This document shows, piece after piece, positions 57,020 through 61,694 of a DNA stretch of 64,000 nt. The notes beneath the pieces were generated by a model. It was not told where the DNA came from, searched no databases, and saw only the letters and a list, made by a program, of their open reading frames with translations. A program made the position numbers and the translations under genes. The DNA is from Christiangramia echinicola DSM 19838 (lineage in GTDB: Bacteria > Bacteroidota > Bacteroidia > Flavobacteriales > Flavobacteriaceae): the NCBI RefSeq assembly GCF_000423065.1, contig NZ_AUHG01000010.1, forward strand, positions 496,001-560,000. Direction: 5' to 3'. Numbering within the stretch: position 1 is the stretch's first letter; every line of letters starts with the position of its first letter.

Positions 57020-57080
57020 AAACCCCTCGAATGGGTATTTCATCTGGAGGTTAAATATTTTAGTTTTATCAGCTGAATTA
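57020..57080 (+). promoter_or_regulatory. Conserved promoter element, copy 1 (before two-component operon)
   Basis: Contains ACCC..ATGGGTATTT (57031-57040), then 26 bases from its start ATTTTAGTTTTA (57057-57068) and GCTGAATTA (57072-57080). The same three blocks occur upstream of the lipoprotein gene at 60159 with identical 26-base spacing. TAGTTTTA resembles a -7 element (TAnnTTTG with a last-base change), and the GGGTATTT block falls at the -33 position. This looks like a regulator-dependent promoter; the adjacent response regulator is the natural candidate. Confidence 0.7.
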
Positions 57081-57206
57081 ATATGGGGAATATATTTTTT
57101 AAACTGCATTTTACTGTACGTCAGTACTTGAAAGTTATAATTAGATAATTTTTTCGAAATTAGAGCTTATTTTAAAAAACATTAACCAACCAAAAATTTT
57201 AATTAA

Positions 57207-57584
57207 ATGGATAAGGAATACGAAAGAGTTCAATTTGGAGTAGATAGCAAAAAACTTCATTTTAAAACCAATGGAGGAAAATTATCTGAAGTAAAGTTCA
57301 AAATTCACTTTCCCGAAAAGTTCGAATTCTTAAACGCAGAATTTACAGAGAAAGAAAAAATAGAAATATATTTCAAAGGAATAGCCGGATCTACTGTAAA
57401 CGAGAATTGGTCCTCTTCTATTAAAGAAGAAACGCAAAATATTACTGTTGATCTGAGTAATGTAACCGGAATTCCTAAAGTTATGGGGATTGAATATATC
57501 CTGTCTGCAGTTAAGGCTAAAACTGAAGAAGGTTTTGTGCCTGAGACCGCTGGTGGTGGAATTTTAGTTGGAACTGGAGGTTAA
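57207..57584 (+). CDS. Uncharacterised protein at head of two-component operon
   Basis: A 125-residue protein without signal peptide or membrane span; I do not recognise it. The sequence is mixed alpha/beta with Lys/Glu richness and ends in a Gly-rich tail (AGGGILVGTGG). It starts 127 bases after the conserved promoter element and its stop is one base before the kinase start, so it is transcribed with the kinase and regulator. A role as a cytoplasmic partner or target of the signalling pair is possible but unproven. Confidence 0.7.
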   Translation: MDKEYERVQFGVDSKKLHFKTNGGKLSEVKFKIHFPEKFEFLNAEFTEKEKIEIYFKGIAGSTVNENWSSSIKEETQNITVDLSNVTGIPKVMGIEYILSAVKAKTEEGFVPETAGGGILVGTGG

Positions 57585-57585
57585 T

Positions 57586-59355
57586 TTGCAACCCAAACTA
57601 ATACATAGAATTATTATAGCAGCAGGTTTCTTACTTGCTGCTTGTTCCTATGCTCAAAACCAGAAACTGGAAGCGGTAGACAGTCTTTTAGGTATTCGGG
57701 AGACTAAAGAAGCTAGCCAGGTTTTAAAGCAGATCGACTCGGCAAAACTTAACCTGGCCCAGAATGCCGAATATTACTACCTCTTTGCTAAACTTGAAAA
57801 TTTAGAGAATAACGCAGATAGTGGTTTTGAACATTTTTTGATCGCAAGGAAAAAATTCCGGGCTTTAGATAGTCTGGATAAAGTTGCTAGCATCAATCTC
57901 CAAATCATCCCCATACTTACATCCAGTAAGAATAAGGATCTGGATCCTCAGCCGTATATGGACGAGTATTTAAATTATGCCCGGCAACAGGACGATCCGG
58001 CTTTACTAGCCAAAGCTTATATGCAACTGGGAAGTATTTTTATTAATACTGATGTGGAAAAAACTATTCAGTATTATAGGAATGCGATCCGGGAAAATAA
58101 GAAAACCGGGGATTCGCTTATGAATGCCAAAATCCATCATAATCTGGGAGTAGCCTATGGTGAGATGACCAAAGAAAAAGATTCGGCCATGCATCATTAT
58201 GAGATTGCATTGACAGAATATAAGAAGCGTGATCTTACAGATTATATCTCCTATATCTATAATAACAAGGCTTCAGTATATAAGCAGCAAAAAGAATTTG
58301 ATTCTGCCATCTTTTACTATAAGAAAGCAGAAGCGATTGCGCCCAAAGAATACGAAAAGGAAAATAAGCGCTTGCTTTATGATCACATGGCCACCGCATA
58401 TGAATTGAAAGGAGATTTTTCTAATGCCTATAAGTATCTGAAGTTAAGGAATATCTATAGTGACAGTATTCAGCAAAGTGAACAGAATAAGGCGATGCTG
58501 GATATACAAACCAAGTATGAGGTCGAGAAAAAGGAGAATGAGAATCTGAGACTGAAGCAAAACAGGATATGGTTGATGGCTGCTCTGGCTGTTCTTTTAC
58601 TGGTGCTTGTAATTGGATTTTTAGCCTATAAAAATATGCGCTCTAAAAAGAAGATCGCAGAAAAGGATTATGAAGTTCAGAAGCAAAAGCTGGATAAAGT
58701 TTTAAAACAACAGGAGTTGGCAGGGATAGACGCCATGATCGAAGGTCAGGAAAAGGAAAGGCAACGAATTGCGAACGATCTTCATGATAATCTGGGTAGT
58801 TTACTGGCTACTTTAAAGCTTCATTTTCAGAATATGAAGATAAGGAAAGACAGGCTGAAGGAAGAAGAGGACAGGATCATGCAACAAACCGATGAGCTTT
58901 TAGATGAGGCCTACCAGCAAGTGCGAAATATTGCGCATACGAAGAATGCCGGGGTTCCCGCACAGGAAGGATTGCTGCCTGCGGTAAAGAACTTTGCCAG
59001 TAAGGTTTCAGCATCCAATAAACTGATAATTGAGGTGGAGGACAGCGGCATGGATGAGCGCCTGGAGAACTCCCTGGAGATCCTTATTTTCAGAATCATT
59101 CAGGAATTGATCACCAATGTTATCAAACATGCAGAGGCTTCAGAAGCGACGATCCACCTCACGCATTATGGAGATGCTATTAATATTCTTGTAGAGGATA
59201 ACGGAAAAGGATTTGTGGAGGAAGAATTAAAGCCAAAAGAAGGAATGGGAATCTATTCTATTCAGAAAAGAGTGGAGCACCGCGGTGGTACCGTAGATGT
59301 GGAAAGTATTCCCGGGAAAGGTACTTCTGTAGTAATAAACATGCCTATATCATGA
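57586..59355 (+). CDS. TPR-containing sensor histidine kinase
   Basis: A 589-residue membrane kinase. The N-terminus is an export signal (LIHRIIIAAGFLLAACSYAQ), followed by periplasmic TPR repeats (about residues 30-310, for example ALLAKAYMQLGSIFI), a membrane span at about 327-350, a coiled coil and a HisKA_3 domain with the phospho-accepting His in RIANDLHDNLGS (about residue 400). The ATPase domain is at about 490-588, with IIQELITNVIKHAEASEA and VEDNGKGF. TTG 57586, directly after the upstream stop, gives the best signal peptide; an earlier TTG at 57568 is also possible. The response regulator gene overlaps by four bases. Confidence 0.9.
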   Translation: MQPKLIHRIIIAAGFLLAACSYAQNQKLEAVDSLLGIRETKEASQVLKQIDSAKLNLAQNAEYYYLFAKLENLENNADSGFEHFLIARKKFRALDSLDKVASINLQIIPILTSSKNKDLDPQPYMDEYLNYARQQDDPALLAKAYMQLGSIFINTDVEKTIQYYRNAIRENKKTGDSLMNAKIHHNLGVAYGEMTKEKDSAMHHYEIALTEYKKRDLTDYISYIYNNKASVYKQQKEFDSAIFYYKKAEAIAPKEYEKENKRLLYDHMATAYELKGDFSNAYKYLKLRNIYSDSIQQSEQNKAMLDIQTKYEVEKKENENLRLKQNRIWLMAALAVLLLVLVIGFLAYKNMRSKKKIAEKDYEVQKQKLDKVLKQQELAGIDAMIEGQEKERQRIANDLHDNLGSLLATLKLHFQNMKIRKDRLKEEEDRIMQQTDELLDEAYQQVRNIAHTKNAGVPAQEGLLPAVKNFASKVSASNKLIIEVEDSGMDERLENSLEILIFRIIQELITNVIKHAEASEATIHLTHYGDAINILVEDNGKGFVEEELKPKEGMGIYSIQKRVEHRGGTVDVESIPGKGTSVVINMPIS

Positions 59356-59969
59356 TTAGATTAGTTATTGCCGAGGATCATACTGCCTTGATCGATGGAA
59401 TTAAGATCTTCTTCGAATATGAAGAAGATATTGAATTTCTTGGTTTCGCAGGGAACGGGAAAGAATTGATAGAACTGGTGAATCATAAAAGACCCAATTT
59501 TGTTATCACAGACATACGAATGCCAGTAATGGATGGGATAGAGGCTACAAAGCTGCTAAAAAAAGACCATCCGGAAATTAAAATAATCGCCTTTACCATG
59601 TTCGATCAGGATAATGCGGTAAAACAAATGCTGAATGCAGGTGCCCATGGTTATATTCTTAAAAATGCCAGTTTAAAGGAATTGTTGTTCGCGATAAGGA
59701 AAGTGCATGGGGGAGAACCTTATTATGACCCTAATATCAATACAGATGATAGAAATAATACTGCCGTAACGAAACCTGTGTTAACCAAACGCCAGCAGGA
59801 AATTCTCAAACTCGTGGGGCAGGGAAAGACGAATCAGGAAATTGCCGATACTTTATTTATTGGTAAAACTACGGTAGAAACACATCGCAAAAATATGATT
59901 CGCAAGTTAAAACTTCAGGGAGCGGGAGAACTCCTAAGGTATGCCCTGGAGCGCAAATATGATTTTTAA
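59352..59969 (+). CDS. NarL/FixJ-family response regulator
   Basis: A 205-residue two-domain regulator. The receiver (about residues 1-120) has the phospho-acceptor Asp54 in NFVITDIRMPVMDG and the conserved Lys in HGYILKNASLKEL. The LuxR-type DNA-binding domain (about 140-205) includes LTKRQQEILKLVGQGKTNQEIADTLFIGKTTVETHRKNM. It is coupled to the kinase by a four-base overlap. Its likely targets are the operon's own promoter and the promoter of the lipoprotein gene, which share a conserved element. Confidence 0.93.
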   Translation: MIRLVIAEDHTALIDGIKIFFEYEEDIEFLGFAGNGKELIELVNHKRPNFVITDIRMPVMDGIEATKLLKKDHPEIKIIAFTMFDQDNAVKQMLNAGAHGYILKNASLKELLFAIRKVHGGEPYYDPNINTDDRNNTAVTKPVLTKRQQEILKLVGQGKTNQEIADTLFIGKTTVETHRKNMIRKLKLQGAGELLRYALERKYDF

Positions 59970-59989
59970 ATAAGTCTTCACTTTAAAAT

Positions 59990-60050
59990 TACCCTTTAAT
60001 GGGTATTTATTTCAGTTTCAATAAATTTTAGTTTTAAACATGCTGAATTA
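59990..60050 (+). promoter_or_regulatory. Conserved promoter element, copy 2 (before lipoprotein gene)
   Basis: TACCC-tttaa-TGGGTA forms an inverted repeat overlapping ATGGGTATTT (59999-60008). ATTTTAGTTTTA follows at 60025-60036 and GCTGAATTA at 60042-60050. Spacing between the first two blocks is 26 bases, the same as in copy 1. The element lies 109 bases upstream of the lipoprotein ATG. Confidence 0.7.
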
Positions 60051-60158
60051 TTCCTGTGAGATCACTTTTTATAAATGTGATTTAAAAGGATGTTCCATGC
60101 TAAACCTAATTGTTAACTGTTCAAATACTCTTATAAGAGTGTTTTAAAATTTAATCAA

Positions 60159-61694
60159 ATGAAAACCTGGAAAAACTTAATGCTGTTTTTTTTATCTCTT
60201 GTATTATTTAGTTGTTCTGAAGATGACCCCGTCGATACAAATGATGACGGACCCGGAACAGATCCTGTGGCAGAAACCCAAACAGGTGTATTTAGAGACT
60301 CTGAAGTTGGAGGCTTAAAATATGAAACTGAAACCAAAAGTGGAATCACCGATGCCGATGGGGAATTTGAATACCTGGAAGGAGAAACAGTAACCTTTTA
60401 TGTTGGGGATATAGCCATTGGTAGTGGTCCCGCAAGTGAAGAGATGACTCCAATTTCTATTGCTTCTACTGAAAATGCAAGCATAGATTCTCCGGAAGTA
60501 AAAAATATAGCCGCATTTCTACAAACTTTAGATTCAGATAACGATCCTTCAAATGGAATAAGCATTAGTGCTGAAACTTCATCTGCAATTACCATCGATG
60601 CCATAGATTTTACCCAGCCTATAGAAAGAATCCTTGGAGAGATCGTGGCAGAGGTAAACCGGGAGACAGGATCTGAACTTAAAGTGATCTATCCGGAAGA
60701 AGCTACGGTTCACCTGGCAGAGACCACCGGGGAAACTTATGAAGCTGGAGTGGATGTATTCAAAAAATTCATTCCCACTTTAGAAAGCTGGAAACCATAT
60801 CCCACCACAAGCGTATACTGGATCCATGAAACTGATTCTGATGGAGATTTAGTTTCATCAACGATGTATGAAAAATATCCGGAAAGGAAATTGTATGAGA
60901 TTACATATACCGAGATTATGGAAAATGGACTGCCAGCAGAATATGATCAAACATATTATAATTTTGGTGAGGCTGGAAATACGGTGAATGTAGAAGTTAA
61001 TTATAATGAAGATAATACTGTAGCTGGTTTTTACAGAACCAATGCTGATGGATCATTTAATCAAAATCTAAAGTTTATTCTGGACGAAGAAAAAAGTATC
61101 TCAGAGGCTCTTTTTTATAGTGAAAATGATGATTTCTGGTATAGACAGGTTTATGATAAGTTAGAAAATGGAAATACCAGGGTGAACACCAGGTATTCTT
61201 CGGAAAGTGGAAATGATGAATCGACTATACAGCGAAAAGTTGAATATACATTTACAGAGTTTGGAGAAATAGCTAGTGAAACCATTGATTCTAAAACAGA
61301 TAATTTTGAAACTTATACTTGGTATTATACGTATACCAATGGAAATATACTGGAGTTTAAAGAAAGTGAATCTGTCGCTTTAAACGGCCGAATTCAAACC
61401 TGGGAAATTTTTTATGACTCCAACGAGAGAATGGAGAGACAGGTGATTTCAGCAGGTGATTATGTAAGCGATTACGTAGAATTCTATCCAAACGGAGATC
61501 CAAAAAGAGCAGAAACTTATTATCAGGGATTTCTATATGAAATTGTGGAATGGGCAGAAGATGGCACCTCTATCTGGACAACTATTAATGAAGATGATGG
61601 TTCTTACAAGATTGAATATAGAGATGAAAATGAAGTGGTCCTGAAAACCGAATATTATGATGCAGACGGTAATTTATTGTCTACTGAAGAGTAA
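60159..61694 (+). CDS. Lipoprotein with surface-domain and YwqK-like repeats, candidate output of two-component system
   Basis: A 511-residue lipoprotein (lipobox LVLFSCSEDD) with an Asp-rich start. Residues about 45-200 contain a domain seen in bacterial surface and adhesin-like proteins (GVFRDSEVGGLKYETET, GEFEYLEGETVTFYVGD). Residues about 210-500 hold repeated Tyr/Gly/Asn units (YYNFGEAGNTVNVEVNY, VEFYPNGDPKRAETYYQGF) like MORN/YwqK antitoxin-type repeats. No enzyme motif is seen. Its promoter carries the element shared with the kinase operon. An exposed binding or structural role is inferred. Confidence 0.75.
   Translation: MKTWKNLMLFFLSLVLFSCSEDDPVDTNDDGPGTDPVAETQTGVFRDSEVGGLKYETETKSGITDADGEFEYLEGETVTFYVGDIAIGSGPASEEMTPISIASTENASIDSPEVKNIAAFLQTLDSDNDPSNGISISAETSSAITIDAIDFTQPIERILGEIVAEVNRETGSELKVIYPEEATVHLAETTGETYEAGVDVFKKFIPTLESWKPYPTTSVYWIHETDSDGDLVSSTMYEKYPERKLYEITYTEIMENGLPAEYDQTYYNFGEAGNTVNVEVNYNEDNTVAGFYRTNADGSFNQNLKFILDEEKSISEALFYSENDDFWYRQVYDKLENGNTRVNTRYSSESGNDESTIQRKVEYTFTEFGEIASETIDSKTDNFETYTWYYTYTNGNILEFKESESVALNGRIQTWEIFYDSNERMERQVISAGDYVSDYVEFYPNGDPKRAETYYQGFLYEIVEWAEDGTSIWTTINEDDGSYKIEYRDENEVVLKTEYYDADGNLLSTEE

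Follow-up and report, generated by a model that had tools for sequence, protein, structure and literature searches.

A stretch of 64,000 nucleotides from the marine flavobacterium Christiangramia echinicola DSM 19838 (contig NZ_AUHG01000010.1, positions 496,001 to 560,000; hereafter the window, in whose own numbering all coordinates are given) carries on its forward (+) strand a three-gene operon for a small variable protein, a sensor histidine kinase and a response regulator, with a copy of one putative operator-promoter ahead of the operon and another behind it, ahead of a lipoprotein gene. The fast-changing, tailed protein and the sensor kinase encoded beside it look like a signal-and-receptor pair in marine flavobacteria. 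The first, or head, gene (57207..57584) is an open reading frame (ORF) for 125 residues with a variable body, no Pfam match and no signal peptide that we could see, and alignment of heads identifies at its C-terminus a conserved tail, PETAGGGILVGTGG (57540..57581). The second gene (57586..59355, with an inferred TTG start) encodes tetratricopeptide repeats (TPRs), a transmembrane segment, HisKA_3 and HATPase, the composition that defines a TPR sensor histidine kinase; hydrophobic segments at residues 5-23 and 323-352 lie on either side of a TPR sensor domain (57658..58551) predicted to sit outside the inner membrane. The third (59352..59969) encodes a response regulator of the NarL/LuxR type, assigned to the NarL/FixJ group by Response_reg (90.8 bits) and GerE (65.2 bits) matches that both exceed their cut-offs. 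The lipoprotein gene (60159..61694), a putative output of the system, specifies 511 residues belonging to no Pfam family.

An operator-promoter shared by the operon and the lipoprotein gene

An earlier, sequence-only reading of this DNA had noticed that the regions upstream of the head and lipoprotein genes share three sequence blocks, the first two at a constant spacing. Those two stand. Block 1, ATGGGTATTT (57031 and 59999), and block 2, ATTTTAGTTTTA (57057 and 60025), have their sole copies in the window at these places, with an offset of 26 bases from one to the other at both sites, and the exact two-block pattern has only these two matches in the entire 3.51-Mb genome (reversed control, 0); at least two copies of block 1 arose in 6 of 100 shuffles, and two copies of block 2 in none. 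Block 3, GCTGAATTA (57072 and 60042), is likewise confined to the two sites within the window, where it follows block 1 by 41 and 43 bases, so its spacing is not fixed; moreover, none was seen in the relatives' flanks examined, which places it outside the conserved element, and we rejected it as a part.

The ACCC..GGGT symmetry pointed out in the same reading belongs to an inverted repeat that a palindrome search found to be perfect at operator 2 (59990..60005, TACCCTTTAATGGGTA, TACCC-N6-GGGTA) and degenerate at operator 1 (57022..57037, ACCCCTCGAATGGGTA), whose two mismatches to TACCCN4ATGGGTA both fall in the left arm and which is kept in a relative (G003) as CCCACGAATGGGTATTT. At both promoters the element accordingly reads TACCC-N6-GGGTA, with the left arm of site 1 degenerate, and then a -7 box 23 bases past GGGTA, forming operator-promoter 1 ahead of the operon (57024..57068, CCC..TGGGTATTT-N20-TAGTTTTA) and operator-promoter 2 ahead of the lipoprotein gene (59992..60036). 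The boxes proper, both TAGTTTTA, occupy 57061..57068 and 60029..60036, and phasing in relatives agrees with the -7 position first proposed for them. PMC9723704 gives such a box the consensus TAnnTTTG and the position -12..-5. If the boxes here are so placed, the centre of the palindrome would lie at about -43.5, adjoining the -33 region. An activator touching RNA polymerase could sit at such a position. The leaders from -7 box to start codon measure 138 and 122 bases in the window (57069-57206 and 60037-60158) and 17-43 bases at 23 of 28 places in other genera. As a genome-wide marker the palindrome alone was rejected, since with two mismatches allowed it is not enriched across the genome (95+69 matches against 91+79 in the control).

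Relatives sharpen the definition of the element. Five of their loci, set against the window, conserve TACCC-N6-GGGTATTT while the bases between and after vary, and the core common to relatives is ACCC-N6-GGGTATTT with a -7-like TAnnTTTR exactly 20 bases on. The sequence-only reading had proposed a scan for the motif, and across 24 Christiangramia genomes the strict pattern yields 24 sites in 11 genomes (reversed control, 0), 19 of them in the six genomes with a head gene of the 125-residue type and none in the three with the regulator and another head type; this concentration is partly built in, because the pattern was drawn from loci of those six genomes. Two of the three other-head genomes carry a variant ahead of the head gene (L106 and L107, GGGTATT[TC]-N20-TACTTTAG). 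When the -7 box is not required, ACCCN6GGGTATTT has 47 matches in the 24 genomes (control, 13), and TAnnTTT[AG] stands at +20 in 10 of the 26 matches in the six 125-residue-type genomes (other offsets, at most 2), in none of the 6 in the three other-head genomes and in 1 of the 15 in the rest, sites palindromic beyond the core being counted on both strands.

Beyond the genus we collected 79 loci from the best 80 of 199 in a kinase alignment, of which 5 gave no head by our position rule and 74 were kept. These 74 heads come from many genera, and CCY-N6-GGGTA is present 23 times upstream of their genes, followed by a -7 box at +23 past GGGTA in 15 cases, at +14 in 3 and at no other offset; the full element lies within 400 nucleotides of 16 of the 74 heads, against 0.013 per 400 nucleotides elsewhere in the same loci. 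A looser form has 28 sites in 14 of 18 genomes (control, 0), including Chryseolinea of another class, Cytophagia, the 18 having been chosen among loci that mostly have the operator. Sequence comparison thus demonstrates the fixed spacing and placement of the element, and its recurrence ahead of orthologous operons in several genera supports an operator-promoter. That the response regulator would be its binder, and the system autoregulated, were earlier proposals that gain support in turn: we infer binding because the element heads the regulator's own operon across genera and because the recognition helix is conserved, with eight of the nine residues at 174-182 being 86-96% identical over 73 rows (E176, 29%), seven rows called as regulators at below 25% identity being possibly miscalled. 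The element is present twice at L013:6971-7095, at a distance of 57 bases, between the head gene and a divergent outer-membrane-protein-like gene.

The head gene and the sensor half of the kinase

The sequence-only reading took the first gene for an unknown cytoplasmic protein, a description that gives way here to that of a variable protein with a tail, encoded beside the sensor half of the kinase. Heads of the 125-residue type occur in 6 of 59 genomes searched, and the other three regulator-bearing genomes of the genus have, in the same place, heads of 164 or 177 residues with unrelated bodies. The nine heads share the C-terminal sequence P[ED]T[AVTS]GG[GS]ILVG, so that alignment demonstrates both the swapping of bodies, three of them unrelated, and the keeping of one tail. 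Tail codons differ at third positions while the residues stay constant, and conservation therefore acts at the level of protein. AlphaFold models the head (six sequences; mean pLDDT 69, pTM 0.63) as a beta-rich body (blocks at 75-88) with a disordered tail (residues 102-125 below 50); a search of PDB folds with this model gave no match at E <= 0.001, and a Pfam scan of 10 other heads gave none above cut-off.

The arrangement extends well beyond Christiangramia. A small ORF directly precedes the kinase in 74 of the 79 loci by the position rule, some of these ORFs being possibly spurious, and heads range from 119 to 244 residues. Clustering at E 1e-3 sorts the bodies of 77 heads into 29 groups. 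The tail motif G-x-[IV][ILV][VIGTSKQ], which was written after the tails had been inspected, occurs within the last 14 residues of 44 of the 74 heads and of 6 of 628 other ORFs; shuffled tails would contain it 3.0 times on expectation and at most 10, and the bodies hold it 6 times in 11554 residues. Further loci carry a related form, KKSEVQGxP. The spelling of the tail mostly tracks the clade of the kinase and not the genus (quick kinase tree of 78 rows, with clade labels set by hand), with locus L215 as an exception. A crude rule assigns a leader or lipobox to 20 of the 23 heads of four clades. A DNA pattern for the tail, run over 397 genomes of the family, proved too loose; of its listed matches, 12 that encode GG-x-ILVG were taken, and none of these 12 stands beside a relative of a window protein (tblastn, 1e-5). 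Paralogues as the cause of differing tails within the genus were rejected, as each of five genomes out of five has one kinase at E <= 1e-90, a threshold that leaves room for more distant copies. Five loci (L009, L010, L011, L105 and L106) have, between HupE and the head, a gene for 270-308 residues whose C-terminal part resembles the helix-turn-helix (HTH) of the regulator; the window has no HTH-like gene of this size in that interval.

Twenty-seven loci of several genera have what we take to be a MazG-like gene within three genes upstream, and the operon therefore occupies one shared neighbourhood, within which its parts can be compared as alleles. Over the 351 pairs of these loci, mean identity is high for the neighbour (89%), the kinase half (81%) and the regulator (74%), and low for the TPR half (27%), the body (17%) and the tail (23%). 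In the 26 pairs whose TPR halves are at least 40% identical the tails average 53% and the kinase halves 83%; in the 293 pairs with TPR halves below 30%, tails average 19% and kinase halves 81%. Individual pairs show the same: L193 and L208 agree at 79% in the tail and 55% in the TPR half, whereas L193 and L229 agree at 7% and 21% with the kinase half at 79%, and in four kinase pairs examined identity leaps near the membrane segment, where roughly 25% gives way to roughly 90%. Since pairs in Spearman tests are not independent, we used the Mantel test on 26 of the 27 loci, one near-duplicate having been dropped, which demonstrates that tail and TPR half diverge together (r 0.55, p 0.0003), the body and TPR half less so (0.23, p 0.007) and the tail and kinase half not at all (-0.05, p 0.67); across all 74 loci the corresponding values are 0.54, 0.25 and 0.04 (p 0.26). 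The reverse case is provided by the Christiangramia window against L163, in which the body is 6% identical, the TPR half 72% and the kinase 87%, and the tail is kept. Together, joint divergence and this body swap suggest that the tail is the part that goes with the TPR half.

The TPR domain itself is modelled with a mean pLDDT of 90 (24 sequences). Among solved folds it comes closest to LGN complexed with peptide partners (TMq up to 0.75); Rap with Phr peptide scores lower (0.63-0.65). Of 24 diverse kinases, 22 retain Asn 104, 22 Asn 186, 22 Asn 226 and all 24 Asn 227. Conserved asparagines in the groove of TPR proteins are the kind of residue that binds a peptide backbone.

A signal-and-receptor reading and its rivals

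We propose that the operon is an autoinducing signal/receptor cassette in which the tail of the head protein is the ligand for the TPR sensor of the kinase, a reading that falls just short of an even call. The first gene would yield a variable protein whose disordered C-terminal tail, free or still attached, would act as the ligand and fit the groove of the TPR domain. The activated kinase would phosphorylate the NarL-type regulator, which would then bind TACCC-N6-GGGTA beside the -33 region and switch on its own operon, and thereby more ligand and receptor, together with genes for surface proteins, the 60159 lipoprotein among them. As in pherotype systems, the ligand would diversify jointly with the sensor half, the kinase half and the regulator remaining conserved. 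Activation rather than repression, contact between tail and TPR domain, and a biological role of this kind are presumed.

Several observations weigh against this proposal. Its chief weak point is the route by which a leaderless head would reach a sensor outside the membrane: by the crude rule a leader is absent from all 31 heads of two clades, the window's and that of GNILVGNP, and the TPR domain is predicted to lie outside. By that same rule an N-terminal hydrophobic segment is found in 49 of 78 kinases, and the later segment in 76 of 78. The motif as written is missing from 30 of the 74 heads, bodies of the observed length are long for a pheromone precursor, and the fold matches of the TPR domain, with designed consensus TPRs among them, are not specific. 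Linkage alone could make the tail travel with the TPR half, because the tail is encoded beside the kinase start, and a weak correlation of the body with the kinase half is seen when all 74 loci are taken (r 0.14, p 0.001). At L215, where the tail reads GNIVVGYP, the TPR half is closest to the KKSEVQG clade (46%) and the kinase half to the GNILVG clade (89%); the locus is apparently a chimera bearing a tail of the type of its kinase-half clade. As for the operator, just those 16 of 74 heads have it close upstream, G004, G015 and G016 have no element directly ahead of the head, and the proposed genome scan also placed 5 of the 24 strict sites in five genomes without the regulator (among 15 that lack it at E 1e-50).

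How these facts bear on other explanations differs from case to case. An ordinary autoregulated two-component system, with the head as a passenger and the kinase sensing something else, suffices for all of the operator evidence; it leaves aside the small ORF before the kinase in 74 of 79 loci, the tail motif in 44 of 74 and the way the tail follows the TPR half, and we find it distinctly unlikely. The head gene most likely makes the cassette more than that. If instead the tail were a tag for export, processing or turnover, tracking the TPR half only through adjacency in one recombined block, then the physical adjacency of tail and kinase start, the abrupt change in identity close to the TPR/transmembrane border of the four kinase pairs, the leaderless heads of two clades and the exception at L215 would all fall into place. 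A general tag should not, however, vary among alleles in one neighbourhood while the kinase half and regulator hold, and the body, equally adjacent, tracks the TPR half less than the tail does (r 0.23 vs 0.55), and so this account too seems somewhat unlikely to us. Lastly, the palindromes might be transcription terminators or attenuators and not operators: site 2 begins 21 bases past the regulator's stop codon and is followed by T-rich sequence, and several relatives' sites lie about 15-40 bases past a stop. Such a role is very improbable given that the distance to the -7 box is fixed, that site 1 in the window sits between divergent genes and that, judged by eye, genes for exported proteins follow 13 of 20 and 13 of 18 places not ahead of heads.

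The signal/receptor cassette might, more broadly, be a polymorphic self-recognition system of Bacteroidota, and we put this forward tentatively, as possible though less likely than not. In such a system a clade-specific C-terminal peptide of hypervariable heads would be read by a TPR ectodomain, one operator would govern autoinduction and surface-protein output, and different signal and receptor types would occupy the same neighbourhood within a genus, in the manner of pherotypes. Were this true, the peptide-reading TPR logic of the RRNPP family would be joined to the membrane-kinase logic of agr and ComQXPA, and signal/receptor polymorphism of the pherotype kind would exist in marine flavobacteria. 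To our knowledge, neither logic is known in Bacteroidota. Among the literature matches listed (titles and abstract starts, with subscription papers and preprints outside their scope) there is no earlier account of such a pair of tail and TPR kinase. Sequence alone already supplies the neighbour gene, a candidate peptide, a receptor groove, an operator and natural allele swaps, and the question is thereby open to a binding assay and to tail deletion.

Known systems and the genes behind the element

A close parallel in gene layout is ComQXPA of Bacillus, which likewise places a variable signal gene beside a membrane kinase and a GerE-type regulator. ComP is, like the kinase here, of the HisKA_3 type, and agr has a layout like that of ComQXPA. 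The N-terminal sensor half of the ComQXPA kinase is variable and its cytoplasmic part conserved (PMC4008528). The same division is found here, a variable signal gene and sensor half accompanying a conserved kinase half and regulator. In contrast to ComQXPA, the signal gene encodes a protein of 119-244 residues and not a short pre-peptide, the sensor is a TPR domain in place of membrane helices, and the phylum is different. In RRNPP systems (Rap-Phr, Rgg-SHP) a TPR receptor pairs with the product of a neighbouring gene that bears the ligand at its C-terminus (PMC9765709 and PMC10075063). The operon has a TPR sensor beside an adjacent gene whose conserved C-terminal tail would be the counterpart of that ligand, and Rap is among the fold matches; it differs in that RRNPP receptors are cytoplasmic, whereas this TPR domain is part of a membrane kinase and lies between two hydrophobic segments, and in that the precursor is long and partly folded. 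The tails EGDIIVGG (L193), GGDIIVGG (L199) and EGDIIIGG (L208) resemble the streptococcal pheromone SHP, given as DIIIIVGG in PMC3150281, over a stretch short enough for the likeness to be chance. The cassette belongs to neither family.

Within the phylum, FimS/FimR of Porphyromonas gingivalis similarly couples a periplasmic TPR sensor kinase and its cognate regulator to surface structures. FimS is the phylum's studied TPR sensor kinase, and according to PMC11053733 its signal is unknown and polypeptide binding has been proposed; on the signal/receptor reading, TPR sensor kinases would gain a candidate ligand. The two are distant in sequence, the window's kinase scoring 36.5 bits with the NCBIfam FimS model against a cut-off of 600. 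NarL/NarX shares with the regulator its Response_reg and GerE domains, differs in sensor and targets, and its NarL model gives 116.7 bits against a cut-off of 250. Operator 2 resembles the 7-2-7 arrangement of NarL sites. PADLOC models matched neither the head nor the kinase nor the lipoprotein, and matched the regulator only in its HTH region, through models named CARF3--CARF at no more than 26.4 bits, so that the cassette does not class as anti-phage defence.

Judged by eye, 4 of the 24 strict places stand ahead of head genes, 13 ahead of genes whose products are exported or lipid-anchored, 4 ahead of MgtC-like genes and 3 elsewhere, including one (L048) inside a reading frame. A counterpart of the 60159 lipoprotein, 79% identical, follows the element in G011, and lipoproteins that resemble it by eye do so in G003 and G016, in keeping with the lipoprotein output that the sequence-only reading had suggested. 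Among further targets are two proteins that match DUF5723 of Pfam above cut-off and one with a weak barrel-like match below it. Of the 28 looser-form places, 10 precede heads, and 13 of the 18 others precede genes whose products have a hydrophobic leader by eye. The regulon described earlier was essentially right and its interpretation overall partly supported, the picture of a self-contained system with two targets being too narrow: the window's genome has two strict sites, and relatives have up to five per genome.

In Winogradskyella psychrotolerans (L262/L265), two genes led by the element lie about 1.1 kb apart and encode a caspase-domain protein, with a match above cut-off, and a nuclease-like one, with a match below it; they hint at conflict functions in some regulons. 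The labels MgtC-like, MazG-like and leucine-rich repeat are our presumptive ones, given by eye or from recall. Upstream of MgtC-like genes, in the divergent region, lies a palindrome built like that of the element (G000:C8:43739 = L065, L119; L042, L045, L047, L060), also in genomes without the regulator (G001, G005 and G013), where it could be the site of another regulator or an attenuator. In a Lutibacter metagenome-assembled genome (L264, L266 and L268), three genes for exported proteins stand in a row after the operon, each preceded by a separate copy of the element.

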